64,000 bases of DNA from Bacteroidales bacterium (GCA_003141895.1 PLNT01000046.1:1-64000); one strand, 5' to 3'. Positions 3,960 to 60,882 are shown, counted from the stretch's first letter. The notes: generated from the letters alone by a model not told the origin. Made by a program: numbers and translations.

Positions 3960-5078
3960 ATGAGAACAATATTTTACCTTATACGAAAAGAATTTTTGCA
4001 GATTTTCAGGAATAAATTTATTTCAAAAGCAATTTTTGCAGTTCCTGTTCTGCAGATGCTGATTCTTGTTCCTGCTGTAACATTCGAGTTAAAGAACGTC
4101 AAAATCGCAATCGTTGATAAAGATATGACCTCTGAATCGAGAGGTCTTATAAGCAAGCTTGATGGTTCAACATTCTTCAGGGTTTCTTATTTAATTTTTT
4201 CGGAAAACGAGGCCAATAACCTTTTACACAGAAACAAATGCAGCATGGTCATCCAGATCCCATCAGGTTTCGGAAAGGATATCGGCACCGGGAAACAAGG
4301 AAAGCTTCTTGCAACCATTGATGCTGTTAATGCCTCATCGGCCGAGCTTTCATGGGCTTATCTCAATGGAGTTATCCTTGATTACAATACTGATCTGATT
4401 AAACAAAATATTTCAACTCTTCCGCTCGGTCCGGTATCGCGTATAGAAATAAATAACAGATACTGGTATAATGAATTACTTAATTATAAATACTACATGT
4501 TACCCGGGATACTTGTAATCCTGGTTACTGCAATAGGCTTCCTGCTCGCTGGTTTAAATATGGTTCGGGAAAAAGAGATCGGAACCATTGAGCAGATAAA
4601 CGTGACTCCGGTAAGAAAGTATCATTTCATTATTGCAAAGATGGTACCTTTTCTTCTTATAGGGCTTATTGATCTTGCATTGGGGCTGATAATAGGAAAA
4701 ATCGCATTTGACATACCTTTTGAAGGGAGTATACTGGTTATGTTCCTTGGCAGCACAATTTTCCTGGTAGCTGTCCTTGGCCTGGCACTTTTTATTTCGA
4801 CATTCTCTGGCACGCAACAGCAATATATGTTTGTCGCATTTTTCTGTATGGTTATATTTATCCTTATGAGCGGGATCTTTACCCCATATGAAAGTATGCC
4901 AATGTGGGCACAGGATTTTAATATGATTAATCCTGTTGCTTACCTGATGCGTATTAACAGGATGGTAATGCTAAAGGGCTCAACAATTCAGGATATAAGC
5001 AGAGAACTCTATTCGCTTATACTAATTGCAGTTGTCTTTACTACTCTTGCAGTTAGAAGATACAGGAAGACAGCTTAA
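3960..5078 (+). CDS. ABC-2 type permease 2
   Basis: Paralogue of the preceding permease and likely second half of the channel (372 residues). It has the same plan: an N-terminal helix after MRTIFYLIRKEFLQIFR, an extracytoplasmic domain (about 45-175), then five or six helices with the coupling segment VREKEIGTIEQINVTPVRK. Last gene of the operon. Its TAA stop is shared with the stop of the convergent receptor-phosphatase gene through the sequence TTAA, a 4-bp overlap. Confidence 0.9.
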   Translation: MRTIFYLIRKEFLQIFRNKFISKAIFAVPVLQMLILVPAVTFELKNVKIAIVDKDMTSESRGLISKLDGSTFFRVSYLIFSENEANNLLHRNKCSMVIQIPSGFGKDIGTGKQGKLLATIDAVNASSAELSWAYLNGVILDYNTDLIKQNISTLPLGPVSRIEINNRYWYNELLNYKYYMLPGILVILVTAIGFLLAGLNMVREKEIGTIEQINVTPVRKYHFIIAKMVPFLLIGLIDLALGLIIGKIAFDIPFEGSILVMFLGSTIFLVAVLGLALFISTFSGTQQQYMFVAFFCMVIFILMSGIFTPYESMPMWAQDFNMINPVAYLMRINRMVMLKGSTIQDISRELYSLILIAVVFTTLAVRRYRKTA

Positions 5079-8000: not shown

Positions 8001-8362
8001 CCGCTAAGACCTTCTTTCCCCCCGACTGAAAGAAATTTATAGCCGTCATAAAGGGTCAATCCATTGTCGGTGCCAATCCAGATGTTTCCCTTACTGTCTT
8101 CAAGTAAACTTCTGACTGTATTGCCTGTCAGACCATTGGTTTTGTTGAATGTTTCAAATTTCTGACCGTCGAAACGAGACACTCCTCCTCCGTCTGTTCC
8201 CATCCAGATATATCCCCGTGAGTCCTGAAGTAAACAATAGACAGATGATTGGGAAAGTCCTTCCTCCACAGAATATCTTTTGAAAAAATATCTTTGCGGG
8301 AGGAGATTAGTCTGAAGGAGAATCGTAAATGCAAGAAAAATTATGGCTCTTTTTTGCATCAC
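5075..8362 (-). CDS. Propeller sensor with Y_Y_Y domain fused to SpoIIE/PP2C phosphatase (copy 1)
   Basis: Predicted inner-membrane receptor phosphatase, 1095 residues. A signal peptide (to about residue 20) is followed by about 14 Reg_prop blades with repeated GxIWIGTxGG motifs (about 25-680), the arrangement known from hybrid two-component sensors. Next come a Y_Y_Y domain (about 690-760), one membrane helix (about 770-790), a coiled coil (about 795-845) and a SpoIIE-type phosphatase. The phosphatase metal-site motifs are visible: SGDFYW, DCTGHGVPGALMS, FSDGFIDQFG and the terminal QIDDILLI. There is no histidine kinase or receiver domain. It lies 38 bp downstream of a caspase-like gene, and the same pair recurs at 55302-60885. 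Phosphoprotein substrate unknown; no STAS or RsbW-type partner is in the window. Confidence 0.87.
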   Translation of the reverse strand: MMQKRAIIFLAFTILLQTNLLPQRYFFKRYSVEEGLSQSSVYCLLQDSRGYIWMGTDGGGVSRFDGQKFETFNKTNGLTGNTVRSLLEDSKGNIWIGTDNGLTLYDGYKFLSVGGKEGLSGNSIMKIVEGKNGIIWAAVWAKGLARLSYGDSITIINYSADDGLLSNFIYSMYEDHDRKLWLGMVGGLSIVEFTDDSSQKIKKVERSYTGSASVLSIEPDNNGTVWIGTDGHGLFTAKLSPENKSCFLEPCLVNSIIPNLQIWDIFSKNKDELWFATDKNGIIKLRDGKITGILNKDNGLLTNQILKIIEDREGNMWFASFDEGALMFKDEKFISYSENNGIMGSQVQGVLFDDNNIFYVATEEGLSKFMKDRNNIKRLTYYSNKNGLNDVGVNALAKSGDDRIWIGTNNGINILDKDKLSQFSWNNQLDNKKITSLFYDSYKSMWIGTSGGVGRLSGDKFIFLSQDQRFINNEISTIIEDKKGTVWIGTLGGMVRFERKSLINTDDIQFTNFGSEDGLSVLKVTSLAEDPSGNIWIGTIGGGIFKFDTKKDTIPISAVSSNDMVMSNTVNSLRFICDTILAAGNDKGFDLLSLDKKQNIKKLVHYDMSDGFFGGENIPNSISADNDGLIWFGTKNGLVRYDPGMDFNYTYLPGTSITGIKLFFEKVDWTTKNTKISRWSNLPENLVLSHKSNHVTFDFTGFCYNNPDELEFSYFLENQSKEWSPYSKLREVVFPGLQPGAYTFKVKARNKFGLTGEPSTYHFLIKPPFWQTPWFYIPAFICFIGIIILIIRIRERNLRNEKIKLEKIVLERTLEVVEQKNEIERQRDVVTNQKQEITDSIKSAGRIQQAVLPEELILKNTFSDYFILFRPKDIVSGDFYWMTEEKNHIIFTAADCTGHGVPGALMSMLGISFLQKIVNESGIINPSSILISLRTNIISALKEEDKLLSSKEGMDIALCTYDKKTKKLWYSGAYNPLYIIRKVKNEFIIIEEKGDRMPIGYHSVMTDFTEHEFRLQKGDTLYLFSDGFIDQFGGENGKKFMVPRFKQMLLDNQQYEMAFQKEVYINVLEEWINFPTVHSKHCGQIDDILLIGLRV

Positions 8363-8400: not shown

Positions 8401-10227
8401 TTATTTCATTATAAAAATAAACTGTCCTCCTTCATCACCTGTATTCTTTATAGGGCTGTAGATTGGAGTCTGATATGAATTATTAACAACCGGAACCTTA
8501 AGAAAGTCGAATAGCTGACCGGCATCATAATATTTTTCTGTATTCTTTGTCAATGCCTCTAAAAAGTAATAAGCAAAAATCGAATGGTTATCTTTTCCTT
8601 TATCAAGTACCGGTTCCACTCCACCTGATGTCAGTGCCTTTCTGCTGTTCAGTGAATACATTTTAGAATAGTATTTGGCGGAGTTATCATAAGGGATCGT
8701 GATAGTTTTGCCTCTGAAAATATCGCCGCTGAAGCATGCATCAGTAACAAGCAGAGTGTGTTTTGAATGAATCCCTGACAGAAATGATTTTATATCTTCG
8801 TTCGAGATGTATTTTGAAATTGATTTTGAGGATGCATCAACCGGGACCCAGAACCCTTTGTCCATATTCTGAATATAATCGCCATGCCCTGAATAGTATA
8901 TCATTACGTTATCATTCTCCTTTACTTTCTGGAGAAGAAACTCAAACTCCTTCATAATATTATCGCGGGTAGCGTCTTGATTATAAAGCGTTTTAATATA
9001 TTTGAAGGTATATTTTGACGACAATAGATCAGCAACACTCTTTGCATCATTGACAGCATTTTTCAATCTGGGCCATTCTCCGCTATATTCATCTATCCCG
9101 ATAACAAGTCCATAGTATTCTCCAACCTGAACTGATTTCATAGCCTGGGCAACATTCAGTCCCTTTAAAGGATCGCCGCGAAACTCTGAATAGTTCTGAG
9201 CTACTGACCGGTCCAAACTTCTATTTAAAGGATGGTCAATTTTTATTGAAAGATCAAGATCATTAACATTTGTGATATCGGCTCCTGCAATATCAAATTT
9301 CACTGTTAATGTTGAGTCGGTATAGTCTTTATTGGCAAAAAACTGAAGTTTTATCTGTTGTTCCTCTCCCTGTTTGAGTGCCGTAACATTTTTGAAATCA
9401 GCAGATTCTGTATTTGCTGGCAGTTTATAACTGATGGTCAGGCTATCCGCGTCTTTATTCCCGACGTTTTTCAGGTTCAATGTCAAAGTAACCGGTTTGC
9501 CAATTGATACTTTATCATTATTTGTATCAAACTTATAATCCATTATAAGCACCTTCGATTTATCCTGATCCTTTTTATCAAGATAAGCAATATCGATATT
9601 GTCAACAATAATTGTTGATTTCTCTCCGACCTGAAACCCGAACATGTTTCCAAAAAATGGTTCAAAGGGCATAGAATGCACAAGTTTCTCATTGAGGAAG
9701 AAATAGTACATGTTTCCTGCTTTCCTTACTGTAAGCTTATTAAAAGCGTACCTGTTTACTTTGTCTGAAAGAGTGAATGGAACATAATCCTGGAATTGTC
9801 CATTGTATTTGTCGAGAGTAAAATGACCTGCTCCAGTCAGAAGAAAATCGAATTGCCTGAATGGATTAACTGCTTTCCCCCATTGCAGGCCGTAACCTTT
9901 GTCAATTTCCCCTTCTACAAATTTAACTGAGATTTCAATTTCGAAGTTACGCTTCTGATCGATTATCACCGGGAGCAGATCTTCTTTTGGTTTATCAGTT
10001 AATGACTGGAACACAAGCTGACCATCTTCAATTCTTTCCGACCAGCTATTCTCTTCTATGCCGAGGAGCCAGTAATTACTAAACTTTGTGAAATCATCCT
10101 TGAAGATGGGCTGGGATTTCAGATCCTTGCTGTAATTATAATCAGCCGGTGAAATTTTTTCCTGAGCTGAAACCGGTAGGGCTAAGATTGTGAGTAAAAT
10201 TAGCCAAAACGTCTTTTTTAACTGCAT
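8401..10227 (-). CDS. Secreted caspase-like protease (peptidase C14) with N-terminal beta domains
   Basis: 608 residues with a Sec signal peptide (cleavage near Ala21-Gln22). Residues about 35-220 look like a concanavalin/LamG-type beta sandwich, about 228-335 like a CARDB-type Ig domain, and 370-608 are the caspase fold. The catalytic dyad is visible as His448 in YYSGHGD and Cys498 in TDACFSGD. The signal peptide suggests it acts in the periplasm or outside the cell. It is the upstream gene of a pair with the receptor phosphatase at 5075, so a functional link is inferred. Substrate and cleavage specificity are unknown. Start chosen at the ATG that begins the signal peptide MQLKKTFW. Confidence 0.85.
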   Translation of the reverse strand: MQLKKTFWLILLTILALPVSAQEKISPADYNYSKDLKSQPIFKDDFTKFSNYWLLGIEENSWSERIEDGQLVFQSLTDKPKEDLLPVIIDQKRNFEIEISVKFVEGEIDKGYGLQWGKAVNPFRQFDFLLTGAGHFTLDKYNGQFQDYVPFTLSDKVNRYAFNKLTVRKAGNMYYFFLNEKLVHSMPFEPFFGNMFGFQVGEKSTIIVDNIDIAYLDKKDQDKSKVLIMDYKFDTNNDKVSIGKPVTLTLNLKNVGNKDADSLTISYKLPANTESADFKNVTALKQGEEQQIKLQFFANKDYTDSTLTVKFDIAGADITNVNDLDLSIKIDHPLNRSLDRSVAQNYSEFRGDPLKGLNVAQAMKSVQVGEYYGLVIGIDEYSGEWPRLKNAVNDAKSVADLLSSKYTFKYIKTLYNQDATRDNIMKEFEFLLQKVKENDNVMIYYSGHGDYIQNMDKGFWVPVDASSKSISKYISNEDIKSFLSGIHSKHTLLVTDACFSGDIFRGKTITIPYDNSAKYYSKMYSLNSRKALTSGGVEPVLDKGKDNHSIFAYYFLEALTKNTEKYYDAGQLFDFLKVPVVNNSYQTPIYSPIKNTGDEGGQFIFIMK

Positions 10228-10404: not shown

Positions 10405-10437
10405 TTTGCATTATTCTTTATTTCGTTGTAAATTTTG
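10405..10437 (+). promoter_or_regulatory. Promoter of giant adhesin 1, shared with adhesin 2
   Basis: TTTG (10405-10408), 20 bp, then TAAATTTTG (10429-10437), close to the Bacteroidota -33/-7 consensus. A block around the -7 element, TTTCGTTGTAAATTTTGTGG and the following AG, is identical in front of the second giant adhesin gene (17137-17158), with the same 20-bp spacing. The transcribed leader before the ATG at 10464 also contains AAACCTGAT in both genes. This points to common regulation. Confidence 0.7.
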
Positions 10438-10463
10438 TGGAGTTTTCTTTAAACCTGATCGTG

Positions 10464-13400
10464 ATGAAACAATTTCTTCTAAAGAAACAGGTTATTTTTT
10501 TAGCTATTGTTTTCATTTTATTAGGCCATAACCTATTTTCTCAAACATTTGTTGAACAAACCAGTATTGTTCTGCCCGGAGTAACAAACGGTTCCGTTTC
10601 CTGGGGTGATTATAATAATGATGGATATCTTGACATTCTATTGACAGGCAAGACAGGAATTGATCCAAACTTTTATCCGATTTCAAGAATTTTCAAAAAT
10701 AATAAGAATAATACCTTCTCGGAACAAACAACCATTTCTTTAAGAGATGTGGAATCCAGCTCTGTTACCTGGGGCGATTATGACAATGACGGGTATATTG
10801 ATATATTATTAAGCGGAAGCTGGGGTGCCAACATATACAGAAACAATGGTAACAACACATTTACTGACCTGACTGGCCTTCCATTAATTGGTCTTTGGGG
10901 GGGGTCGGTTGCCTGGGGAGATTGTGATAACGATGGATATCTGGATATATTACTGGCTGGAAGTGGCAATTCAAAAATCTACCGGAACCTGGGAAATAAC
11001 CTCTTTATTGAGCAAAGCGCCATTTCACTGACAGATGTCAATAATATTGTTTCAGTTGCATGGGGAGATTATAATAATGACGGATATCCTGACATCCTTT
11101 TAACCGGTCAGGAGAAAGGAGGCGCTAGTGTCTCTAAAGTCTATCGGAATAATGGAAATAATACTTTTACGGAACAAACTGGCATTCATTTAACAGGAGT
11201 TCTAGGGAGTTCTGTTGCATGGGGTGATTATAACAACGATGGATATCTGGATATTTTATTGACAGGTGCTAGTTCAGAAGGCATCGTTTCCAGGATCTAC
11301 GGCAACAATGGCGATAATACTTTTACCGAACAAACCGGCATTTCGTTGACAGGAGTAATGAATGGTTCAGTTGCCTGGGGTGATTACAATAATGATGGAT
11401 ATCTGGATATTTTATTAACTGGTACAACAAATGGAAATAATAATGGTGCTATCACTAAAATTTATCGCAATAACGGCGATAATAGCTTTACTGAACAGAC
11501 AGGTATTTCATTAACAGGAGTTGCCTCAAGTTCAGTGGCATGGGGTGATTATGATAACGATGGAGACCTGGATATTCTGTTAACAGGACTAAGTGCAAAT
11601 GGCCAGATAATTTCCAAAATATACAGGAACGATATTGTTAATCCCAATACAAAACCTTCAATTCCGGCCAATCTAAATGCTGCCATAAATAACGGAATTG
11701 TAACATTCACATGGAATAAAGCATCTGATAATCAAACAGCACAGAACGGATTAAGTTACAATCTGTATGTTTATGAATCAGGTCAGACAAATTATAAAAC
11801 TACACAACATGCATTCCGCCAAAGTGATATCTTAAATGGAAGCCGGCTTATAGCAAAAACGGGGAACATTCAGTGGAGCACTACTGGTTATGCTTTAAAT
11901 AACCTGCCTCCTTATAAAACATATTATTGGACAGTACAGGCAGTCGACAATGGTCTTTTAGGTGGTCCTTTTGCTGCCGAACAAAGTTTCATTATGCCAT
12001 TGTACAAACCTACTACCCAGGCAAGTTATCTGAAGATCACCAGTTTGCAGGATAATCAGATGACTCTGAACTGGGCAAATGGAGGAGGAACAAAACGGGT
12101 TGTTTTCATAAAACAGGGAACAAACGGAAATGCTGACCCGGTTGACAATACAACTTATGCTCTGAATGGTTTAACCCCCGGAGGATGGAGATGTGTTTAC
12201 AATGGTAATGAAAGTTCAGCAACGATAGCCGGATTAATAATCAATACAAGCTATATAGTTCATGTAATAGAGTATAATGGATCGTCAGGTAGTGAAAAAT
12301 ATCTGACTTCCGGAGCAGCAAGTAATCCGTTGCCGTTTAGTTCAATATTTACGGAACAATCGGGTATTAATCTGGAAGGCGTTATTGGGATCTCAGCATG
12401 GGGCGATTATGACAATGATGGAAATCTTGATATTTTATTGACAGGAAGCAATCTTTCTTTAGTTTATCACAACAATGGGAATAACAGTTTTACTAAACAG
12501 ACAGGTATTTCATTAACAGGTATTTGGAGTGGTTCAGCAGCATGGGGGGATTATAATAACGACAACTTTCTGGATATTATATTGACAGGTTTTAATGGGC
12601 CTGCAGAAAGCGGCGGGCCTGTCTCTAAAATCTATAAGAATGACAGAAATAATAACTTTATTGAACAAACCGGCATTTCATTACCACCGATATATCAAAG
12701 TTCAGTTGCCTGGGGTGATTACAATGGCGATGGCTATCTGGATATCTTACTTACCGGTCAGACAGCCTCTGGTTATCTTTCAAAAATATTCTCCAACAAC
12801 GGAGACAATACTTTTTCAGATCTCACCGGTCCTTCATTAACTGCATTTTACAGGAGTTTCGTGGCCTGGGGCGATTACGACAATGACGGTTACCCTGATA
12901 TTCTGTTGACAGGACGATCTATATCCTGGCCGATTTCTAAACTTTATCATAACAATGGTGATGGCACCTTTACGGAAAATACCGGTGTTTCTTTACCTGG
13001 TGTTGAAGATAGTTCTGTTGACTGGGGTGATTATGATAATGATGGCTACCCGGATATTATATTGACAGGCACAGATATAACCGGTTACAGAAATTCAAAG
13101 ATTTACAGGAACAATGGAAATAATACATTCACAGAGCAGCAAAATATTCATCTGACCGGAGTTACATCGGGTTCCGTAAAATGGGGAGATTATGATAACG
13201 ATGGCAACCTGGATATTCTGTTGACAGGTTATTCAGACTCCGGACCGGTTGCCAAAATTTATCGTAATAATGGTGATAATACTTTTGCCGAACAATCTGG
13301 TATTCCTTTAACAGCTGTCTATGGAAAGAGTTCGGCAATCTGGGGGGATTACGATAATGACGGAGATCTTGATATTCTGCTAACTGGGATTGATGCAAAT

Positions 13401-16400
13401 GGTAATAATATTTCAAAAATTTACAGGAATAATATTGAAAAAATCAATAAGATTCCCGTACATCCTGATAATCTGAGTTATGAGATCAAGGGCAAAAATG
13501 CTCTTTTGAAGTGGGACAGAGTCACAACAGATGAAACTTCATCAAAATCCATTACATATAATATAAAAGTTGGAAGAAAAAGTGGTGCATCAAATTTTGT
13601 TCCTTGCAATTCTGATTTAAATGGTTTCAGGCGAATAGCAGAAAGGGGCAATACCCAGTTTAACACAACTTTTCTTTTTAAAAACCTCCGATGGGATACA
13701 ACTTATTATGCCAGTGTGCAGGCAATAGATAACTCATTTAAAGGCGGAGCTTTTTCAAATGAGGTCCAGTTTAAAACTAGTCCAGTACAGGCATCTGATC
13801 TCAATGCGACTCATATCAATAACAGTTCGATCATGCTAAAATGGAAAAGAGGGAATGGAGACCGATGCATAGTTTTTGCCAGGGAAGGTACCTCCGGAAC
13901 AGCTAACCCACAGAATTTCACAACATACTTTGCCAGCCCGGTATTTGCTGAAGGTTCGCCGCTGGGTTCAACCGACTGGTATTGCGTTTATAAGGGAGAG
14001 GCAGATTCAGTTTTACTCAGCGGTCTGAACCCGCAAAAGAATTATACTATTTACACTATTGAATTCCAGGGCAAAATTGGTTCCGAGATTTATGCCCCGT
14101 CACCAACTTCAGAAAATATGGGCATATTCAGTTCTTCATTATTCAGCGAACAAACTGGTATCCAACTAAGTAGCATTGGGTTTAGCTCAGTTACATGGGG
14201 CGATTATGATAATGATGGATATGCTGATATTCTCGTTACCGGTAATCCTGGTCCTGTTAACAGCTCAGTCACTAAAATCTACCATAACAATGGTGACAAT
14301 ACTTTTTCTGAACAAACCAGCATTTCCTTACCAGGAGTCTCTTTTAGTTCTGTCGCCTGGGGTGATTATAATAATGACGGATTTCTGGATATTTTATTGA
14401 CAGGTGTTACAAGTTCGGTTTATCTTTCAAAAATCTACAAGAACAATGGCAACAACACTTTCACTGAACAAACTGGCATTTCATTACCTGGCGTTGATGT
14501 ATCTTCAGTTGCCTGGGGCGATTATGATAATGATGGAAATCTCGATTTTCTGTTAACAGGGCAATCCTATGATGGATATATTTCTAAACTCTACAGAAAC
14601 AACGGCGATAATACTTTTACTGAACAGACAGGCATTTCTTTGCCGGGAATCGCATCCGGGTCTCTTGGATGGGGCGATTATAATAATGACGGCAATCTGG
14701 ATTTTTTATTGACAGGCTATACTGGTTCAAATGGTGTCTCAAAAATTTATCGAAACAATGGAGATAATACATTTAGTGACCAAACAAACATCTTACCAGC
14801 TGGTCTTTCAGCTGGTTCCGCTGCCTGGGGAGATTATGACAATGATGGTTATCTTGATATTCTATTGACGGGAAATGGTTATTCTAAAATCTACCACAAC
14901 AATGGAGATAATACTTTTACTGAACAAACAGGCATTCATTTGACAGGAATAAATTATGGTTCTGCAGCCTGGGGCGATTATGATAATGACGGATTCCTTG
15001 ATATTTTATTAACAGGTAGCACAGGCTCAAGTTATATTTCCAGGATCTATCATAACAATGGTGATAATACCTTCACTGAGGAAACCGGAATTTTACTGAC
15101 TGATGTAGACTGGAGTTCAATAGCCTGGTGCGATTACGATAATGATGGCGATCTGGATATATTAATGACAGGATTTGATGCAAGCAGTAACGCAATTTCA
15201 AAAATATACCGGAATAATCTGGTCGCTAAATCAGGTACATTTGCTCCAAATATCAAACCTTCTGCTCCAACTAATTTAACAAGTTCAATAAGTCCAGGCA
15301 AAACTGAATTGACATGGTCCCCGGTAAATAATGATGAAACTCCGGATAATGCTATGAGCTATAATCTCCGGTTCAAATTAAAAGATGCTACACAATGGAA
15401 ATTTGCACCCCAGGCAGCCGAAAATGGGTACAGGCGGGTTCCGGCCATGGGAAATCTGCAGCTGAACAAAAGCTTCAGATTGAAAAACCTTTCACCGGGA
15501 ACATATTACTGGCAGGTTCAGGCTGTTGATCAGGGATATGCAGGAGGTGCCTGGTCTGCTTTGAATTCATTTACTGTTAAGAACACCCAGGCTTTCTTTA
15601 AATCTGATACCGTATGCCGCGGTTCGGCTACTCATTTTACTGATCAATCTGCTGCCTCTGATGGAATTGCGTCATGGAAATGGGATTTCAAAGATGGCAC
15701 AACATCTGCATTGCAGAATCCAACTCATATTTTTAGTTCAGGCGGCACACATAACGTTAAATTAGTAGTTACCAGCAATAGCGGGGTAAAGGACACTATT
15801 GAACATAACGTAATTGTTAAAGTCAGACCAATTACTGATTTCTCTGCGACAACTGTCTGCCAGGGAAGTGAAACAGTTTTAAATAACCTTACAAATACTT
15901 CAGGGCTAAATATCACTTCATGGTCATGGGATTATGGTGACGGTAAGGGTTCAACATTTCAGAGTCCCGGATCACATGGTTACCTCCTTGCCGGTGATTA
16001 CAAGCTAACTTTATTAGCTGTTGCAAATAATGGTTGCTCCGATACCATTAAAAAGACTGTTACAGTTGGAACAATTCCTGTGGCAGAAATTACAGCAAGT
16101 AAACCGCTCACCTTTTGCGCAGGAGATAATGTAACCTTGTCAGTAAGTGCAGATACAGATTATTCATATAAATGGTTACTTGACAGCACAGCTATAACTG
16201 ATGCAACAAAAAATAGTTTTACCGCAACACAATCCGGAAAATACTCTGTTGAAGTAACAAATACCAAAGGATTATGCAAGACAATTTCCTCACTCGTATC
16301 GGTAACGAGTCTTTCAATGCCGGTCACCCCCGTAATAATTACTGAAAATTATGAGGAAGGCAAGTGCCCGGGGAATAGTGAGATTATTCTTCGGGTTGAT

Positions 16401-17072
16401 CAGCCCGGTGCAGAGTATAGTTATCAATGGAAACGAAACGGGACAGCAATAAGCGATGCCACAGGAAGCAGCTACATCGGGTTTCTTCCAGCCGGTGACT
16501 ATACCGTAGCGGTTAATCAGTCCGCTTGCATATCTGAATCTGCGGTTAAGACACTTGTTTTTGATAATGCTCCTGAAAAACCTTACATATTTGCGAAGGG
16601 CCCTACTGTCTGGTACCTTGCATGTAATACTGTCAACGCCCCTCAATACAAATGGTACTATAACGGTAATCTGATTCCTGAAGCAACCGGTTATTTATAT
16701 GTTGCAAACCAGAACCTTGGTAAATACTTTGTAAGCATTGGGAATGACAAAGGCTGCTTTACTGCCAGTGATGAAATAACTATTCCACCTGTTATTACTG
16801 GTTTAGAAGATATTGATCTGGGCAAGGGAATAAAAATCTACCCCAACCCTACTACAGGTAAGTTCACAATGGAGATGGATAACGACATTTATGGTGATTT
16901 GGGTATAAGTGTTATGAACCAGGCAGGGAAAGAAGTTCTGAAGTTAAGGCTTAAGAAAACGACGGAACATTTTTCAACGCAGATTGATCTTAACGGACAG
17001 CCTAAAGGTCTTTATCTCATTAACACTACATCAGGCAAATATTTCAGAACTGATAAAATCGCAATTGAGTGA
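10464..17072 (+). CDS. Giant secreted FG-GAP/VCBS propeller adhesin with T9SS sorting domain
   Basis: About 2202 residues from the ATG at 10464 (signal peptide MKQFLLKKQVIF to LFSQ); a GTG at 10437 is in frame but lies in the promoter. I count 21 FG-GAP-like repeats with the core WGDYNNDGYLDILLTG, whose D-x-N-x-D-G-x-x-D loop suits Ca2+. They fall in three blocks of seven (about 10590-11640, 12390-13440, 14190-15230), each expected to be a seven-bladed propeller and followed by fibronectin-III-like domains. Then come two PKD domains (WKWDFKDG, WSWDYGDG; about 15595-16065), Ig-like modules and a type A T9SS C-terminal domain starting IKIYPNPTTGKF (about 16830-17070). Exported through type IX secretion and probably held at the cell surface; ligand unknown. 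Confidence 0.85.
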   Translation: MKQFLLKKQVIFLAIVFILLGHNLFSQTFVEQTSIVLPGVTNGSVSWGDYNNDGYLDILLTGKTGIDPNFYPISRIFKNNKNNTFSEQTTISLRDVESSSVTWGDYDNDGYIDILLSGSWGANIYRNNGNNTFTDLTGLPLIGLWGGSVAWGDCDNDGYLDILLAGSGNSKIYRNLGNNLFIEQSAISLTDVNNIVSVAWGDYNNDGYPDILLTGQEKGGASVSKVYRNNGNNTFTEQTGIHLTGVLGSSVAWGDYNNDGYLDILLTGASSEGIVSRIYGNNGDNTFTEQTGISLTGVMNGSVAWGDYNNDGYLDILLTGTTNGNNNGAITKIYRNNGDNSFTEQTGISLTGVASSSVAWGDYDNDGDLDILLTGLSANGQIISKIYRNDIVNPNTKPSIPANLNAAINNGIVTFTWNKASDNQTAQNGLSYNLYVYESGQTNYKTTQHAFRQSDILNGSRLIAKTGNIQWSTTGYALNNLPPYKTYYWTVQAVDNGLLGGPFAAEQSFIMPLYKPTTQASYLKITSLQDNQMTLNWANGGGTKRVVFIKQGTNGNADPVDNTTYALNGLTPGGWRCVYNGNESSATIAGLIINTSYIVHVIEYNGSSGSEKYLTSGAASNPLPFSSIFTEQSGINLEGVIGISAWGDYDNDGNLDILLTGSNLSLVYHNNGNNSFTKQTGISLTGIWSGSAAWGDYNNDNFLDIILTGFNGPAESGGPVSKIYKNDRNNNFIEQTGISLPPIYQSSVAWGDYNGDGYLDILLTGQTASGYLSKIFSNNGDNTFSDLTGPSLTAFYRSFVAWGDYDNDGYPDILLTGRSISWPISKLYHNNGDGTFTENTGVSLPGVEDSSVDWGDYDNDGYPDIILTGTDITGYRNSKIYRNNGNNTFTEQQNIHLTGVTSGSVKWGDYDNDGNLDILLTGYSDSGPVAKIYRNNGDNTFAEQSGIPLTAVYGKSSAIWGDYDNDGDLDILLTGIDANGNNISKIYRNNIEKINKIPVHPDNLSYEIKGKNALLKWDRVTTDETSSKSITYNIKVGRKSGASNFVPCNSDLNGFRRIAERGNTQFNTTFLFKNLRWDTTYYASVQAIDNSFKGGAFSNEVQFKTSPVQASDLNATHINNSSIMLKWKRGNGDRCIVFAREGTSGTANPQNFTTYFASPVFAEGSPLGSTDWYCVYKGEADSVLLSGLNPQKNYTIYTIEFQGKIGSEIYAPSPTSENMGIFSSSLFSEQTGIQLSSIGFSSVTWGDYDNDGYADILVTGNPGPVNSSVTKIYHNNGDNTFSEQTSISLPGVSFSSVAWGDYNNDGFLDILLTGVTSSVYLSKIYKNNGNNTFTEQTGISLPGVDVSSVAWGDYDNDGNLDFLLTGQSYDGYISKLYRNNGDNTFTEQTGISLPGIASGSLGWGDYNNDGNLDFLLTGYTGSNGVSKIYRNNGDNTFSDQTNILPAGLSAGSAAWGDYDNDGYLDILLTGNGYSKIYHNNGDNTFTEQTGIHLTGINYGSAAWGDYDNDGFLDILLTGSTGSSYISRIYHNNGDNTFTEETGILLTDVDWSSIAWCDYDNDGDLDILMTGFDASSNAISKIYRNNLVAKSGTFAPNIKPSAPTNLTSSISPGKTELTWSPVNNDETPDNAMSYNLRFKLKDATQWKFAPQAAENGYRRVPAMGNLQLNKSFRLKNLSPGTYYWQVQAVDQGYAGGAWSALNSFTVKNTQAFFKSDTVCRGSATHFTDQSAASDGIASWKWDFKDGTTSALQNPTHIFSSGGTHNVKLVVTSNSGVKDTIEHNVIVKVRPITDFSATTVCQGSETVLNNLTNTSGLNITSWSWDYGDGKGSTFQSPGSHGYLLAGDYKLTLLAVANNGCSDTIKKTVTVGTIPVAEITASKPLTFCAGDNVTLSVSADTDYSYKWLLDSTAITDATKNSFTATQSGKYSVEVTNTKGLCKTISSLVSVTSLSMPVTPVIITENYEEGKCPGNSEIILRVDQPGAEYSYQWKRNGTAISDATGSSYIGFLPAGDYTVAVNQSACISESAVKTLVFDNAPEKPYIFAKGPTVWYLACNTVNAPQYKWYYNGNLIPEATGYLYVANQNLGKYFVSIGNDKGCFTASDEITIPPVITGLEDIDLGKGIKIYPNPTTGKFTMEMDNDIYGDLGISVMNQAGKEVLKLRLKKTTEHFSTQIDLNGQPKGLYLINTTSGKYFRTDKIAIE

Positions 17073-17119: not shown

Positions 17120-17153
17120 TTTTGCTTTTATCCGAATTTCGTTGTAAATTTTG
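17120..17153 (+). promoter_or_regulatory. Promoter of giant adhesin 2, copy of the adhesin 1 promoter
   Basis: TTTG (17121-17124), 20 bp, then TAAATTTTG (17145-17153). The block TTTCGTTGTAAATTTTGTGG plus AG is identical to the one before adhesin 1, while the flanking bases differ. The conserved spacing and sequence imply a duplicated regulatory region. The start codon is at 17186. Confidence 0.7.
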
Positions 17154-17185
17154 TGGAGATTTATTCAAACCTGATTGAAATTTTT

Positions 17186-20100
17186 ATGAAAACTAAAATC
17201 TCGATATTTTTTTTAGTTTTTTGCTTATCTCTTTTAAGCACGTTTTCAAATGCACAGGGGGTTTGGGAGGTACAAAATCCATTACCAACATGTGAGCCTC
17301 TAAATGGTAGTTATTGGTTGAACTCTACAAATCTCTGGGCAGTGGGCGACAACGGTACAATTCTTAAGACAGTTGATGGAAATACATGGACCAAATTGAA
17401 TTCGGGGACAACTTCTTATTTATATGGTGTTTATTTTTTTGATGCTAATATTGGTTGGGCAGTTGGTTCAAATGGAACAATTCTGAAAAGCACAAATGGG
17501 GGATCAACCTGGACCTCAGAGACAAGTGGTACTACTCAGGAATTATATAAGGTGCATTTCATAGATTCAAACACAGGATTTATTGTTGGTGGTACATATG
17601 CATCAGGATCTGGAATAATTCTAAAAACTACAAATGGAGGTAACACCTGGAATATACTGCTAAGCGGTTATGCATATAATTTTTATGATTTTGATTTCAT
17701 TGATACAAATAACGGATGGGTAGTTGGAGATCATGGAACGATATTAAAAACCCAAAATGGGGGAAATGCCTGGACAGCACAAGTAAGTAATACTACGAAT
17801 GATCTTTATACGATTCAATTTATTAATTCAAATATTGGGTGGGCCATAGGCTCTAGCGGACGAATATTGAAAACTATTGATGGCGGAATTACATGGAACC
17901 CACAAACCAGCGGTGTTAATGCAGGACTAATTGCTTGTTATTTTGCCGACACTCAAACAGGATGGATTGCAGGAGAGCATTACATTTTAAAAACTATTGA
18001 TGGTGGTCAAAATTGGTTAGTCAAAAGTAATTCTACTTATGATTATTTTAACAGTATCTGTTTTGCAGATATATCAACAGGGTGGGTTATAGGTAACAAA
18101 ATTTTAAGAACAGTTGATGGAGGTACTTCATGGATAAATTTAATAACAGGAGTCTCTAATTATGCTTTAATGAGCATTTATTTCTCTGATGCCAATACAG
18201 GATGGTCTGTTGGTGTAGGTGGAACAATTTTAAAAACAATTAATGGAGGTTTAAGTTGGTTATCTCAAACAAGCAATACTAGCAATGATTTGTATGGTGT
18301 ACAATTTGTAGATAATAATAATGGATGGGCAGTAGGAGCATCTGGTACTATATTAAGAACTAACAATAGAGGTTTAAATTGGATAGTTGTTACCAGCGGT
18401 ACGAGTGATTATTTATTTAGTGTATTTTTTTTTAATGCAAGTAATGGCTGGGCTGTGGGGGGAGCTTCTTCTGGTACTGCACTTTTTACTATTGATGGAG
18501 GCCAAACTTGGACGGTTAAAGCAAATCTGCCATCGAAACAATTAAATTATGTCCATTTTTTTGATGCAAGTAACGGATTGGCTTTAGCACCATTGTCTCT
18601 CACAGCATCGACCTTGTTGAAAACAGCTACTGGTGGCAATTCCTGGACATCTAAAACAATTAATTTAGCACTGAATGAAGTCTTTTTTATTGATCCCAAT
18701 ACCGCATGGGCTATTGGATCTAATGGATCAAATATTTACAAAACGACAGATGGAGGAACAACATGGACAACACAGGTTAGTTCTTCAGGGTTTATGGGTC
18801 TCTTCTTTTATGATGCTGCAAAAGGTTGGGTTGCAAGAACTGATGGTGCAGTTCATGGAAACCTTACTATGCAGAAAACTACTGATGGTGGTTCCACTTG
18901 GGTGATTGAGAAAATTCCTTCTCTATCTGTAACTAAAACATATTTTGTGAAGCCTAAAGTTGGATGGGCCGCCGGATTTAATGGAATGATAATACATTAT
19001 ACTGATTATAGTCCAACCACTCAGGCAAGTAACGTTTCAATTGCTGGAACCACCTATCAAAACATAAACGTCTCCTGGACACGTGGAAATGGTAACCAGG
19101 GTGCTCTGTTTGCCAAACAAACAAATACAGGTACCTGTACACCAGATGTGAATGTTACATATTTACCAAATGCCACTTTTGGATTAGGCGATCAGGTTGG
19201 CAGTACCGGTTGGTATTGTGTTTATAATGGCATGGGGACTTCTGCTTCAATTTCCGGGTTGCAAGCAAACACAGCTTATACATTTCAGGTTTGCGAGTAC
19301 AATTTCAGCCCTGATTTCACTCATTATAATTCCACCACAGCAACAAATAATCCCATAACAGCTACTACTGCAATTGCACCTCCTCAGATTACAACTAACC
19401 CGGTTGCTGTCACCAAATGCGAAAATCTTTCAACCACCTTTTCCACCTCTGCCTCAGGAACGGGGCTAAGCTATCAATGGCAGGTCAATTCAGGACCGGG
19501 ATTTGTGAATGTTACTGATGATGCTGTCTATTCCGGCAGCCAGACTGCTACTCTAACTCTGACAGGTATTCCGGCTAGTCTGAATTCATATAAGTATCAC
19601 TGTGTTGTTTCAAACACCTCAGGCAGTGCCACAAGTAATGATGCTGTTTTGACCGTTAATCCTTTACCTGTAACTCCTTCTGATATTTCTGGCTCCCAGA
19701 TAGTTTGTTTAAACAGCATTTATCCCTATAGTGTATCACCTATCGCAAATGCAAGCACATATACATGGACCTATCCTGCCGGTTTTTCGGTAACAAGTAT
19801 TATAGATAACAATATTAATTTAACAACTTCATCCGGAGCTGTCACCGGTAACATTACTGTTCAGGGCCTTAACGGCTGTGGATCGGGTCCTGTAAAAAGT
19901 TTCCCGGTCAGTGTGAGGAACCTGCCGGCAAATGCTTCCCAGATAACCGGATTGAACAGTGTCTGTACCGGAAGTATAAATATCGGATACAATACAGCAA
20001 CAATTTCAGATGCGGATTATTATGTCTGGTCATTGCCTTTGGGAGCCACAGGTACAAGTTCAACCAATTCCATTATGGTAAGTTATGGAACTAATCCACT

Positions 20101-21448
20101 TACAGATCAGATAACTGTCAAAGGGCATAATATTTGTGGTGATGGGGTCCAGAGTGTTCTCCCGGTTTCTGTAAATACAGTGCCTGAAGCAATCGGTACA
20201 ATTTCAGGCAGTTCAAATTTATGTAAAAACCAGAAAGATGTTTTGTTTTCTATAAATGCAATTCCAAATGCTACCTCCTATTCATGGACATTACCTCAGG
20301 GCATAGCGGGCTCTAATTCAATGAATAGTGTGTCGCTGAATATTGGTCCGGATGCTTTCTCAGGAGATGTTAAGGTTTCAGGAGTAAATTCATGCGGTAC
20401 TGGTGCTGAAATAGTATTTCCTGTAATAGTTGATGCCGCTCCTGATTCTGCAGGACCTATTACCGGTCCGGCAAAAGTTTGCGGAGGAGAAACTAATGTA
20501 CAATATTCAGTTCCCAAATCAGACAAAGCTACCTCTTATATCTGGTCGCTCCCTGATGGGACAAGTGAAACAACAATTGCAAATAAAATTGCATTGAATT
20601 TTGATAATAATACTATATCAGGCAACCTGACTGTTTCACCTGTTAACTCATGTGGAAGTGGCAATAGCAAAAGTTTATTTATTGATGTTACCGTTCCATC
20701 TAAACCTGAAATAACTTCAGATAACTACAAGGCAGGAAGCTGTCTTGGAGAAACACCTCTGAAACTAAGTGTTAAAGAGGCTTTGCCCGGATATAATTAT
20801 TTGTGGTACAAGAACGGAGCTTCAATTAGCTCAGTTGCGTCATCTTATCTCGAAGGATATCTTTCAAGTGGTTATTATACCGTTGAAGCAGATCTAGACG
20901 GATGTACATCACAGTCTGAAATCTTCAAAGTACTCTTTTCGGATGCTCCTGAAAAACCGGTTATTTATTCCAAAGGGCCGACAGTATGGTACCTCGCATG
21001 CAGTAATGAGAATGCACCACACTACAAATGGTATTATAATGGGAGCATAATACCCGGAGAAGATAAATCTGTCTATGTAGCCGCTCAGAATCTCGGAAAA
21101 TATTATGTACTGGTAGGAAATGCCAATGGATGCTATACTGCAAGTGATGAAATAACTATCCCTTCTATTATTATGGGTATCGATGACATTGATCTGAATT
21201 CAGGAATAAAAATCTACCCAAATCCCACAACCGGAAAGTTAACTATCGAAATGAACAATAAATTATTTGGCGATTTGATGATCAATATTCTTAATCAGGA
21301 AGGAAAAGTAGTATCCTCTAAGAAAATAAAGAAGACAACTGAAGAATTACTCGACCAGACCGATCTAAGTGCATTATCAAAAGGAATCTATTATATTCAT
21401 TTGATTATCAATGATTTTAATTCATCCCAGAAAATAATTATAGAATAA
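17186..21448 (+). CDS. Secreted YCF48/BNR-repeat protein with Ig/PKD-like modules and T9SS sorting domain
   Basis: 1420 residues from the ATG at 17186, which opens a clear signal peptide (MKTKISIFFLVF to SNAQ). About 14 YCF48/BNR-like repeats with GWAVGxxGTILKTxDGGxTW (about 17330-19010) would form one or two propellers. They are followed by a fibronectin-III-like domain (about 19010-19370), an Ig-like domain, and four roughly 85-residue PKD-like modules, each with a TYTWTYP/YVWSLP core (about 19680-20690). The tail is an Ig-like pair and a type A T9SS domain beginning IKIYPNPTTGKL. The last 250 residues are closely related to those of adhesin 1. Surface or extracellular; role unknown, adhesion or glycan binding inferred. 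Confidence 0.85.
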   Translation: MKTKISIFFLVFCLSLLSTFSNAQGVWEVQNPLPTCEPLNGSYWLNSTNLWAVGDNGTILKTVDGNTWTKLNSGTTSYLYGVYFFDANIGWAVGSNGTILKSTNGGSTWTSETSGTTQELYKVHFIDSNTGFIVGGTYASGSGIILKTTNGGNTWNILLSGYAYNFYDFDFIDTNNGWVVGDHGTILKTQNGGNAWTAQVSNTTNDLYTIQFINSNIGWAIGSSGRILKTIDGGITWNPQTSGVNAGLIACYFADTQTGWIAGEHYILKTIDGGQNWLVKSNSTYDYFNSICFADISTGWVIGNKILRTVDGGTSWINLITGVSNYALMSIYFSDANTGWSVGVGGTILKTINGGLSWLSQTSNTSNDLYGVQFVDNNNGWAVGASGTILRTNNRGLNWIVVTSGTSDYLFSVFFFNASNGWAVGGASSGTALFTIDGGQTWTVKANLPSKQLNYVHFFDASNGLALAPLSLTASTLLKTATGGNSWTSKTINLALNEVFFIDPNTAWAIGSNGSNIYKTTDGGTTWTTQVSSSGFMGLFFYDAAKGWVARTDGAVHGNLTMQKTTDGGSTWVIEKIPSLSVTKTYFVKPKVGWAAGFNGMIIHYTDYSPTTQASNVSIAGTTYQNINVSWTRGNGNQGALFAKQTNTGTCTPDVNVTYLPNATFGLGDQVGSTGWYCVYNGMGTSASISGLQANTAYTFQVCEYNFSPDFTHYNSTTATNNPITATTAIAPPQITTNPVAVTKCENLSTTFSTSASGTGLSYQWQVNSGPGFVNVTDDAVYSGSQTATLTLTGIPASLNSYKYHCVVSNTSGSATSNDAVLTVNPLPVTPSDISGSQIVCLNSIYPYSVSPIANASTYTWTYPAGFSVTSIIDNNINLTTSSGAVTGNITVQGLNGCGSGPVKSFPVSVRNLPANASQITGLNSVCTGSINIGYNTATISDADYYVWSLPLGATGTSSTNSIMVSYGTNPLTDQITVKGHNICGDGVQSVLPVSVNTVPEAIGTISGSSNLCKNQKDVLFSINAIPNATSYSWTLPQGIAGSNSMNSVSLNIGPDAFSGDVKVSGVNSCGTGAEIVFPVIVDAAPDSAGPITGPAKVCGGETNVQYSVPKSDKATSYIWSLPDGTSETTIANKIALNFDNNTISGNLTVSPVNSCGSGNSKSLFIDVTVPSKPEITSDNYKAGSCLGETPLKLSVKEALPGYNYLWYKNGASISSVASSYLEGYLSSGYYTVEADLDGCTSQSEIFKVLFSDAPEKPVIYSKGPTVWYLACSNENAPHYKWYYNGSIIPGEDKSVYVAAQNLGKYYVLVGNANGCYTASDEITIPSIIMGIDDIDLNSGIKIYPNPTTGKLTIEMNNKLFGDLMINILNQEGKVVSSKKIKKTTEELLDQTDLSALSKGIYYIHLIINDFNSSQKIIIE

Positions 21449-21455
21449 ATAAACC

Positions 21456-23375
21456 ATGAAACGATCTTCAATATTCTTATTCGTTCTTATGTTTCTCTAT
21501 ATGCCCAAAATAATGGGGGTCGAATTTTCTGCCAAGGAGAAGTCAATAATCTATACAAATGCCATCCAGGTTCTTCAGAACTACCAGTCGATTGTAAACC
21601 AGGTAGGAGAATCTGTCGTAAATAATATTGAAAAGGCTAAAAGCGGTTCGGAAAGCTTTCTGGAGCTATTTGTCAACAGACAGGTATTGATCTATAATGA
21701 CCTCGATCCGGCACATAAACTAAGTGAATTCTATGAAGCTGAGACATATTCATCAAATATAATCCTCTGGTATCCCGACGGGCTCTCCATACAGCTCGAT
21801 CTTGAAAACGCCAGGGTAAGCGATATTATGACACATGAAGAAAATGTGTACTCAATAGATATATTGGTGAAAAAAACTATCAATGGAAATTATCTGAATC
21901 AGACACTGAATAAAAATGTCGAAGAACTGACTTTCAGAATCGCCTTTGGATTGCAAAACAAATCGATAACAAATTTTAAAATCGTCGGAATCAGGAATGC
22001 CTCATCAAATTATGTAATTGACTACACACAGGCTCTGAAAGAGGTTAATAATGTTGATTTTAATGCTGATGATATGACAAAAATCAGGGGCGAGCTAAAA
22101 TCTTTACTTAAAGACTATTCAAATTATTTATCACTTCTTGGTGATCCCCAGGAACAGGCCGATGACAAAGAGTTCTATAAAACAAGTTTCATAAAATTAT
22201 TCCAGTCCGGTGATATAAAGATATTTAATGATTTCAGCCCGCAACCACTGACCAGCCTGATTTCTGTTACCGATTACCTTTCAGGCTTTTTGTCTGATTA
22301 CCCTTCCGGCATAAAGAATCTGTCGATCAATACCGACTCTGCAAAATTCGGTAAAGTAATGAAGACCGATAAGGAGAATTATTATACATATGTAAATGCT
22401 GATAAGTTCTTCTCGGGAAATTACAAGGGGAAGGATGTCTTCCGCAAAATGTTTCCTCTGATTTTTAAAATATCTTTTAAAGCTTCAGGAAAAACATTTA
22501 CAGATTTCACAATCAGCAGCATTGATATCTCATCTGTAAACTTCTACCAGGCATCTGCAGGGAATGCAGACAAAAAACCTGAAATCATTATTAAACCCGT
22601 TACACGAAAAGGACTGGGCCTGTCATTTACGGCATCATATGGTCAGACTCAAATCAATTCGAAGGATATAACAACCCTGACTGTAGCAAACGCCCAGCAT
22701 TCATGGAAAGTTACTCCCATGTACGGTTATCTGACTGCCCTGGGAGTGAATTACTTTTTTACTGATAATATTGCAGTAAAAAGCGGAATAGAATTCAGTA
22801 AATATTCAGAAAAATACAACCTGAACGGATCATTTACCAATAATGTCCTTTCAACAGATATCAATTCATCATCTTATTATAAACAAATTGACGTAAATTT
22901 AGATTCGGTAGTAAATATTAATTATATAACAATCCCTGTTTTAATAAATTTCGTGAGCGGGAAACCAGGAAGATTTGGTTTTTACGTTGAAGCTGGTGCT
23001 AAGATTTCAATTCCGGTCAGTGCATCATATTCAAGCAAAGGAAGTTTTAAAACATCCGGCAACTATCCCACTAACCCAAGTGTAATTCAGAATCTTAGTT
23101 TGCCAGAACTTGGATTCTACAACCGGGAAGGCACTATTAATAAAGGTGATATTGACTTTAAAGGATTAAATTTTTCTCTTTACAGTTCTATAGGAATAAA
23201 TATACCTTTGGGATACTATTCTTCTATCAGTATGGGTCCTGAAATGAATTTAGGGTTAACTGACATATTAAGTGATAAGAAAAAATATGTGGATATTTTC
23301 GGAAAATCATATGTTCATCAACCAACAAAAATTATGAACTTTGGCATCAGAATAAGCCTGACATACAAATTGTAG
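21456..23375 (+). CDS. Unknown exported protein: two repeated N-terminal domains plus outer-membrane beta-barrel
   Basis: 639 residues, 7 bp after the second adhesin, so probably in its operon. Signal peptide to about residue 21. Residues about 24-182 and 200-365 look like two diverged copies of one alpha/beta domain (helix, LF.....I.ND..P motif, then beta strands ending in NFKIVGI or DFTISSI). Residues about 385-639 alternate hydrophobic and polar positions with many Tyr, Gly and Phe (GLGLSFTASYG, YITIPVLINF, GFYVEAGAKIS) and end MNFGIRISLTYKL, typical of a PorT/OMP_b-brl outer-membrane barrel. I do not recognise the N-terminal domain; an NTF2-like fold is possible. May anchor or help the neighbouring T9SS proteins. 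Confidence 0.75.
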   Translation: MKRSSIFLFVLMFLYMPKIMGVEFSAKEKSIIYTNAIQVLQNYQSIVNQVGESVVNNIEKAKSGSESFLELFVNRQVLIYNDLDPAHKLSEFYEAETYSSNIILWYPDGLSIQLDLENARVSDIMTHEENVYSIDILVKKTINGNYLNQTLNKNVEELTFRIAFGLQNKSITNFKIVGIRNASSNYVIDYTQALKEVNNVDFNADDMTKIRGELKSLLKDYSNYLSLLGDPQEQADDKEFYKTSFIKLFQSGDIKIFNDFSPQPLTSLISVTDYLSGFLSDYPSGIKNLSINTDSAKFGKVMKTDKENYYTYVNADKFFSGNYKGKDVFRKMFPLIFKISFKASGKTFTDFTISSIDISSVNFYQASAGNADKKPEIIIKPVTRKGLGLSFTASYGQTQINSKDITTLTVANAQHSWKVTPMYGYLTALGVNYFFTDNIAVKSGIEFSKYSEKYNLNGSFTNNVLSTDINSSSYYKQIDVNLDSVVNINYITIPVLINFVSGKPGRFGFYVEAGAKISIPVSASYSSKGSFKTSGNYPTNPSVIQNLSLPELGFYNREGTINKGDIDFKGLNFSLYSSIGINIPLGYYSSISMGPEMNLGLTDILSDKKKYVDIFGKSYVHQPTKIMNFGIRISLTYKL

Positions 23376-23398
23376 TAATATCCGAAATCAATAAATAG

Positions 23399-24049
23399 AT
23401 GGTTAAGAAACTTCTCACAATAGTATTAGCTACCGCGATAAGCCTGATTGCATCAAGCCAGACAAAAACTGCTGTTACAAGTAAACAGGCAAAAATTACT
23501 GACGAAATCAATCTAAGTCCATCCGACATAGAATTATTCAAAGAACAGACAAAACAGAAAGTTGAAGAGTTTCAACAATATATCGTAACCCTTGGAAACA
23601 AAAATGAGCCGGCCGAAAAACGCAATATGGCTGAAAAAGAGGCCTTAAAGCTTTTTTACAATGGTGCCCAGATGGAGATAACAACTATAAAGCCCGACGG
23701 ATCGATCCAGAAAATAAACCGTCCAATGGAAAAATATCTCGCAAGGCTCAAATCTCTGCCATTTACGAAGGTTATCATTAAATTCTATGATATAGCTTAT
23801 ATCAGTGAGTTTACTAAGGGCCCTGACGGCAAATATTACTCCACTGCTACTATTATCCAGGAGTTTACCGGTTTCACTAACGATGAAATCGTCTACAAAG
23901 ATGTCACAAAAAAAGAAGTTGAGATCATTGTTGATCTTGTAGAGGACAAATTCTTTAACGAAAAAAGATGGAAAATCTTTCTTGGGGATATTAAGGCAAC
24001 AGAAACAAAATCAACAGAAACTGAAACAAAATCAACAGTACTAAAATGA
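23399..24049 (+). CDS. Unknown small secreted protein with one copy of the neighbouring domain
   Basis: 216 residues with a Sec signal peptide (MVKKLLTIVL to ASSQ). The mature part (about 38-200) resembles the domain found twice in the preceding protein: an N-terminal helix, LGN, ALKLFYNG, YLARLKSLPFTKVIIKFYDI, then KYYSTATIIQEF and a final strand. The C-terminus is a short Thr/Lys/Glu-rich tail. 23 bp after the barrel protein and overlapping the next gene by 4 bp (ATGA), so translationally coupled to it. No recognised family. Confidence 0.7.
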   Translation: MVKKLLTIVLATAISLIASSQTKTAVTSKQAKITDEINLSPSDIELFKEQTKQKVEEFQQYIVTLGNKNEPAEKRNMAEKEALKLFYNGAQMEITTIKPDGSIQKINRPMEKYLARLKSLPFTKVIIKFYDIAYISEFTKGPDGKYYSTATIIQEFTGFTNDEIVYKDVTKKEVEIIVDLVEDKFFNEKRWKIFLGDIKATETKSTETETKSTVLK

Positions 24050-24900
24050 CTTTAATACCTGTTCCAGGAAGACTTGTTGCTTTAATATTCTTTCTTCTCC
24101 TGGTTGCAAAAAATAATAATTGCTATTCTCAAACAATTGTTAAACAGGAAAACCAGAATGAAAAAAATTTCCTGGTACGCACAAAACAATTTAATGAGTT
24201 TGTTGACCGGTTCAATTATAAAGTAAATTTCCATGGAGACAGCGCTGATTCAGAATTCAAATCAAAAATTCCTCGCGACAAATTAATTAATTCCCTGTTC
24301 GACCTGAAAGATCCTCGTGTGGATCCAAATAACGAAAGGTATTCTAAAAAATATGTTGACGAAAAAACAGAATTTATCAGCGAGATGATCCTTAAGAATC
24401 TTTCAATAAATAAACATTCCGGTAAAATAATTGCTGAAGCAAGATCACGTGTGCTTTTAAAAGGAACTCCTCATGTCATCAGCATTTTTCTTTCCCAGGA
24501 AGTTTCAGGGAATAATACGGTAAAATGGGTTATAAATGATGTAAAAGGCGATCTTTTTAATTTCTTTAAAAGTGATACTTCTCTCGTTAGATTTATTCCT
24601 CCGTCAAGCAATGAAACTGACTTCCTAAACCTTAAAAGAGCGCTGGATGATACCGATCACCTGCAATATTACTCTTCAAAAGATTATTGTCCTGATTATC
24701 TTTCGGTATTTTATTATATGATTAATTCCAAACTAATCCAATTTGAATATACTGAAGAGATAATATACCACATCATCGATATCCCAGGCTGGTTCATTAA
24801 AGTAAAGGAATTTAACAGGAATGAGATGAATTCCGGATGGCTCATTACAGATATAGGGAAGAATACATTTGATAAGTTCAATTATCTGAAAAACAATTAA
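24046..24900 (+). CDS. Unknown secreted protein, last gene of the adhesin operon
   Basis: 284 residues. A signal peptide or single helix (RLVALIFFLLLVAKNNNCYSQ) is followed by a domain that may be another remote relative of the two upstream proteins (RDKLINSLFDLKDPRVDPNN, then beta-rich segments ending VKWVINDVKGDLFN). A C-terminal part ends in WFIKVKEFNRNEMNSGWLI. Start overlaps the previous stop by 4 bp. Function unknown; exported, co-transcribed with the barrel protein. Confidence 0.7.
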   Translation: MTLIPVPGRLVALIFFLLLVAKNNNCYSQTIVKQENQNEKNFLVRTKQFNEFVDRFNYKVNFHGDSADSEFKSKIPRDKLINSLFDLKDPRVDPNNERYSKKYVDEKTEFISEMILKNLSINKHSGKIIAEARSRVLLKGTPHVISIFLSQEVSGNNTVKWVINDVKGDLFNFFKSDTSLVRFIPPSSNETDFLNLKRALDDTDHLQYYSSKDYCPDYLSVFYYMINSKLIQFEYTEEIIYHIIDIPGWFIKVKEFNRNEMNSGWLITDIGKNTFDKFNYLKNN

Positions 24901-60846: not shown

Positions 60847-60882
60847 TTGTCTAAAACTTAGGTTAATTTCTCTTACAACTTT

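Follow-up and report, generated by a model that had tools for sequence, protein, structure and literature searches.

Type-A cargo of the T9SS is attached to lipopolysaccharide or released after PorV. PorV is the general carrier that receives type-A substrates from the SprA translocon, and those of type B have dedicated PorP/SprF barrels, which are encoded alongside and have been proposed to be their anchors (PMC12618676, PMC12635249, PMC9143113, PMC10994853). PorV as well as the PorP/SprF carriers are 14-stranded, FadL-type barrels (PMC9143113), and sprF-like genes are located directly 3' of the type-B cargo genes (PMC12618676). With their type-B cargo, the PorP/SprF barrels are the precedent for the holding of a secreted protein (PMC9143113, PMC12618676). 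A small barrel of the system, PorG, acts via cysteines in its C-tail (PMC12635249). Dedicated barrels have so far been described for type-B cargo only, whereas type-A cargo has been described with one general carrier, PorV.

Here, we describe a locus of a Bacteroidales bacterium in which a barrel gene follows two giant type-A cargo genes. It is part of a stretch of 64,000 nucleotides (GCA_003141895.1 PLNT01000046.1:1-64000), referred to as the window. The first cargo (10437-17072, + strand, 2211 aa) has FG-GAP, fn3 and PKD domains, the second (17153-21448, +, 1431 aa) has a YCF48-type propeller and PKD_6, and both carry a type A CTD (TIGR04183, 38 and 44 bits with a cut-off of 23); no toxin domain was found at their C-termini, which are T9SS type A sorting domains according to Pfam and TIGR04183. 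Three genes on the same strand follow, A (21456-23375, 639 aa), B (23399-24049, 216 aa) and C (24046-24900, 284 aa). The tight three-gene cluster behind the adhesins that a preliminary description had proposed was confirmed with exact coordinates: A starts 7 bp past the end of the second adhesin, A and B are separated by 23 bp and B and C overlap by 4 bp. The export of all three proteins, claimed as well, is suggested by N-termini that look like signal peptides by eye. mutL is located 3' of A-B-C, and a promoter and terminator scan of the locus gave matches at chance level only. A barrel gene directly 3' of a giant secreted protein is also found in SprB-SprF and PG1035-PorP-PorE, and in the latter PorE, a periplasmic protein that has a cell-wall-binding domain, is a partner comparable to the periplasmic modules described below. 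However, the cargo is of type B in these systems but of type A here.

The sole Pfam match of A is OMP_b-brl_2 (PF13568, 33.6 bits with a cut-off of 27), in agreement with the C-terminal outer-membrane barrel that had been claimed for the 639-residue protein. A search of PDB sequences gave no match, and the PorP/SprF models of Pfam and NCBIfam (PF11751 / TIGR03519) are absent from A and likewise from its plain relatives. In a model of moderate confidence (mean pLDDT 72, pTM 0.38, from 9 sequences), the putative signal peptide is followed by two domains, D1 (residues 22-192; 21519-22031, +) and D2 (residues 193-374; 22032-22577, +), each with a pair of helices followed by strands, a further helix and a last sheet, and by a barrel of about eight strands (residues 375-639; 22578-23372, +). 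With this model, Foldseek found OmpA, OmpW, OmpX and similar barrels as the best PDB matches of the barrel part. The non-barrel matches were four out of four chains of TcpC (3ub1; E 1.7e-5 to 2.8e-5, probability 1.0), but the TM-scores to 3ub1 were low and the match is thus local. According to DSSP, the order of elements in the modelled D1 and D2 is alpha-alpha-beta-alpha-beta(3-4), the cone fold of the NTF2-like superfamily. Based on this topology and the TcpC match, D1 and D2 are predicted to be NTF2-like, with TcpC as the closest solved structure; no NTF2-like family of Pfam matched A or B. TcpC and the VirB8-like, NTF2-fold proteins of conjugation resemble A in having tandem NTF2-like domains outside the inner membrane, where they are building blocks of an envelope machine. 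They differ in that no sequence similarity was detected and that A has an outer-membrane barrel, is from a Gram-negative organism and has no link to DNA transfer.

What, then, is the relation of A to the known barrels of the T9SS? Compared with the FadL family barrels PorP and SprF, with their 14 strands, A would have a smaller barrel of another family, as far as the model can tell, and the periplasmic part consists of NTF2-like domains with B and C, or of a fused OmpA domain in relatives of A, often in the presence of a caspase. PorG and other small outer-membrane barrels of the T9SS are of similar kind and from the same phylum, but A does not contain a single cysteine, so that a disulfide link as in PorG is not to be expected, and A is not a core T9SS gene. 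Since the genome encodes SprA, PorV and nine PorP/SprF genes elsewhere, A adds to the carriers and replaces none of them. By analogy, A most likely works like PorP/SprF without being a member of that group, having another barrel and type-A cargo. PADLOC defence models matched none of A, B and C, and an identity as defence system was dropped.

The preliminary description had seen, by eye, the same domain twice in the 639-residue protein and once in the 216-residue protein, and both observations were borne out by profile comparison. D1 and D2 are related with an hhalign probability of 98% (E 4e-15, 165 columns), in line with their modelled topology, and D2, which is nearest to B, is related to the B family with 96% (E 4e-9, 147 columns); the inputs were alignments of orthologues and distant relatives, and controls with reversed alignments stayed at or below about 1%. 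Independently, a search of relatives with B alone also picked up the D2 part in two orthologues of A (E 5e-4 and 1e-3). Of the LF-ND-P signature by which the domain had been recognised, LF is kept in the 216-residue protein and ND is absent; homology rests on the whole-domain profiles. B had no match in Pfam, NCBIfam, PADLOC or PDB sequences and can be called NTF2-like only by its homology to D2. In two distant loci (L129, L132), B is 67% identical to the B of the window, as compared to 35% for A and about 32% for C. Between families, B is about twice as conserved as A and C, and this marks B as the constrained part of A-B-C.

A further copy, tentatively assigned to the 284-residue protein, was not found. 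Profiles gave no link of C to any copy of the domain (hhalign 0.1-8%), and the model of C (pLDDT 89, 49 sequences) has another topology with two blocks, each with helices followed by three strands. Foldseek with this model gave nothing significant (PDB structures at E 0.25 or above, viral structures at E 0.01 or above), and there was no match in Pfam, NCBIfam, PADLOC or PDB sequences. C as an NTF2-like copy was therefore ruled out; compared with PDB and viral structures, its modelled fold is a candidate new one.

A profile built from ten barrels defines the family of A, designated A7, with relatives in 33 of 149 Bacteroidales genomes. Gene order was counted in 50 fetched loci with 49 family members, the ORFs of which came from a simple six-frame script; in these counts and in those of distribution, related genomes are treated as independent. 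A protein with a type-A CTD is encoded immediately upstream on the same strand in 37 of the 49 members, but in only 1 of 261 other genes of these loci. When the ten loci seen earlier, which had partly been chosen by context, are left out and only those fetched by barrel similarity are considered, the count is 27/39. Nearly all of the other 12 of the 49 follow a large ORF on the same strand without a detected CTD. The architecture is variable: 26 members consist of the plain barrel, 17 are extended at the C terminus and 6 have NTF2-like domains. The extension was an OmpA-family domain in all eight tested, which indicates that fusion of the barrel to periplasmic modules occurred repeatedly. Binding to the cell wall is a known property of OmpA domains and fits a holding role of the family. 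Barrels with a single NTF2-like domain lie directly 5' of a C14 caspase in 5/5 cases, as opposed to 0/42 for plain or OmpA barrels. Barrels with two such domains are accompanied by B and C, and in most cases by a caspase gene and a SpoIIE-propeller gene in divergent orientation. A7 is a widespread, undescribed family that probably provides dedicated outer-membrane partners of secreted giants, likely for holding or processing at the surface. One locus of this kind (L070:1-5679) has, besides a one-NTF2 barrel and a caspase, genes for an OmpA/CARDB protein and for a C25 peptidase of the gingipain type that carries SprB repeats.

The order adhesin-A-B-C is found in six loci of the genus of the window (G042, G010, G013, G015, L031, L033), with mutL next in most of them, and outside the genus in G172 (f19), G178 (f25) and G134 (f88). 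G042 has a second copy of A directly 3' of a second adhesin, and in L033:302-2051 the A gene is in two frames, either by an assembly error or as a broken copy. Eight of the 48 genus members have homologues of the adhesins (E <= 1e-50). Six of these eight have at least one of A, B and C (in G002 a C fragment alone), as opposed to 0/40 of the others at comparable similarity (Fisher p 2e-6, relatedness ignored), so that the co-conservation with adhesins to be expected from the preliminary description was indeed seen within the genus. In the two exceptions a 452-aa one-NTF2 barrel (G018) and a plain 295-aa barrel (G023) follow the adhesin. A pattern search of genome contigs gave three loci, all from close relatives. 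Co-conservation with the T9SS machine is not informative, since 76 of the 78 genomes tested have SprA, whether or not they have C.

Divergent to the adhesins, the window encodes an exported caspase-fold (C14) protease with a CARDB domain (8401-10227, - strand, 608 aa; PF00656, 69.3 bits) in which the catalytic pair is present in YYSGHG (His) and TDACFSG (Cys), and a sensor-like protein with a Reg_prop propeller, Y_Y_Y and a SpoIIE phosphatase (5075-8362, -, 1095 aa; Pfam). The divergent pair is kept beside the adhesins in five further genomes (G042/L060, G010/L072, G013/L214, G178/L213 and G134/L215), across f1, f25 and f88. A caspase is in the matching place in L031, L060, L072, L213, L214 and L215; the locus L031 ends after it. 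In G172 (f19), A-B-C has no caspase nearby and the caspase-SpoIIE pair is not beside the cargo.

B and C also occur outside the adhesin context. C is present in 78 of 393 Bacteroidales genomes and in 41 of 204 genera, and B-C is thus a conserved, unnamed pair in about a fifth of the genomes sampled, one member of which is a candidate new fold. In the commonest order, B and C are preceded by a small lipoprotein whose tail is NTF2-like and followed by an LRR protein with an NTF2-like N-terminus; B is related to the LRR protein N-termini with an hhalign probability of 93% and to the lipoprotein tail with 90%. This operon (L064-L067, L103-L127 and others) is widespread and unnamed, its products all seem to be exported, the LRR proteins have roughly 810-900 aa, and often there is no caspase anywhere in the genome. 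Beyond the order, other families of the class also have B-C together with genes for a lipoprotein and an LRR protein. Alternatively, a caspase with an NTF2-like tail (a weaker link, 65%) precedes B and C. The sole C14 gene of the genome adjoins B-C in G050, G209, G371 and G208, and two C14 genes flank it in G400. L139 brings together B, C, a caspase, a T9SS protein with SprB repeats and two proteins that carry the domain at their N-terminus. An NTF2-like N-terminus was also suspected, by eye, in a 362-aa barrel protein next to a caspase-B-C locus (L130), but profiles gave 12% at best. Since there are B-C loci with neither T9SS cargo nor barrel, most frequently of the lipoprotein-LRR form, the pair is not specific for adhesins, and the NTF2-like/C core is shown by this to be a more general part of the envelope. 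No report of the A-B-C set was found in the literature on NTF2, LRR and caspase in Bacteroidales, and the B-C core and the fold of C look undescribed so far. Other genes near B-C are Ser/Thr protein kinases (L116:6345-7970 and L141:7103-8686), one of them with MORN repeats, and in L116:9734-11293 a C homologue of 519 aa has an additional papain-like stretch at its C terminus, in which the catalytic Cys seems, by eye, to be Ser.

Taken together, we consider it moderately probable that A-B-C is a cargo-dedicated outer-membrane complex for the holding or processing of type-A T9SS adhesins. A would be the dedicated partner of the adhesins encoded just upstream, with its barrel in the outer membrane and in touch with the secreted adhesin. 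D1 and D2 would extend into the periplasm and associate with B, as the separate NTF2-like subunit, as well as with C, and the assembly would be a holder on the envelope side; the neighbouring exported caspase may process the cargo or a component of the set, and the SpoIIE-propeller protein may couple the set to a signal. The analysis shows the homologies, the fold of D1 and D2 as predicted by the model, the gene order across the family and the repeated association with caspases; we infer that the proteins are exported, where they sit in the membrane, that they touch each other, that their job is anchoring and all that caspase and phosphatase would do. A role dedicated to the cargo is argued from gene position, holding rather than carrying from a barrel that is small and has exchangeable modules in the periplasm, including one of a cell-wall-binding type, and processing of something in the set from the caspase neighbour. 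A surface complex that anchors or matures the giants had been proposed at the outset. The order of barrel after type-A cargo, the co-occurrence of A-B-C with the adhesins and the conserved caspase neighbour speak for such a complex, in which anchoring and maturation would be its putative tasks; that all of its parts share one domain does not hold for C. Points against a holder are the occurrence of B-C without cargo or barrel, the availability of PorV and the lipopolysaccharide route to type-A cargo, and the lack of a nearby caspase in G172.

A sensor in the envelope, in which the NTF2-like pocket binds a ligand or a cell-wall fragment and controls caspase and SpoIIE phosphatase, with the adhesins as output and not as client, would account for the SpoIIE-propeller gene as a conserved divergent neighbour, for the kinases that adjoin B-C in L116 and L141 and for B-C with LRR proteins and caspases where there are no adhesins. 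It is unlikely, however, because the entire barrel family is associated with T9SS cargo, in most cases without a signalling gene, and because no phosphatase was seen in the lipoprotein-LRR operons examined. Quite improbable, in our opinion, is that A collects the adhesins from the SprA translocon as a cargo-specific carrier, as SprF does for SprB: the modelled barrel with its roughly eight strands is OmpA/OmpW-like, whereas the carriers are of the 14-stranded FadL type (PMC9143113), A matches no carrier family in Pfam or NCBIfam, and PorV and nine PorP/SprF genes are already present elsewhere in the genome, although the gene does have the position of sprF after sprB, and sprF-like genes do follow type-B cargo (PMC12618676).

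That A-B-C and the adhesins are mere neighbours without a working link, for example in an island beside mutL, is compatible with the other partners of B-C elsewhere. We consider it very improbable, since the adhesin-barrel order recurs across the order with plain, OmpA-fused and NTF2-bearing barrels and since the barrel was duplicated together with the adhesin in G042. Polymorphic-toxin systems have been described with immunity proteins of the NTF2 and LRR types and with caspases as processing peptidases (PMC3482391), and one could imagine giants that carry a toxin, a caspase that frees it and NTF2/LRR proteins that confer immunity. This deserves hardly any credence: the cargo C-termini are sorting domains and not toxins, signal peptides are recognised by eye in B, C and the LRR proteins, and B-C is usually single-copy, conserved and not diversified.

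Returning to the complex dedicated to type-A adhesins, it is tempting to generalise. Bacteroidota may have a second, undescribed route to hold or mature giants of type A, each with its own small barrel and interchangeable periplasmic modules (OmpA; one NTF2-like domain and a caspase; two NTF2-like domains, B and C), and the B-C core, with a new fold in C, may be a general envelope scaffold that is combined anew with an LRR protein, a lipoprotein or an exported caspase. We regard this wider view as tentative and somewhat doubtful. If true, a barrel family of this kind, dedicated to type-A giants and equipped with interchangeable periplasmic parts and an associated caspase, would be an added route of surface display in a phylum that is dominant in many microbiomes.

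The caspase of the window shares its catalytic His and Cys motifs with other exported C14 caspases of Bacteroidota. What sets the caspases described here apart is that they are bound by gene order to NTF2-like barrels and to B-C, and some of them have the NTF2-like tail, with the weaker link mentioned above (65%). In one locus, the gene that precedes B-C where a caspase would be expected (L131:10989-11864) lacks the His/Cys motifs but retains the tail; apparently, it is a dead caspase. The window itself encodes a second SpoIIE-propeller-like protein (55302-58493, -), about 31% identical to the one on the adhesin side. It is adjoined by a TPR protein of 794 aa (58501-60885, -), the C-terminal part of which resembles the caspase protein.
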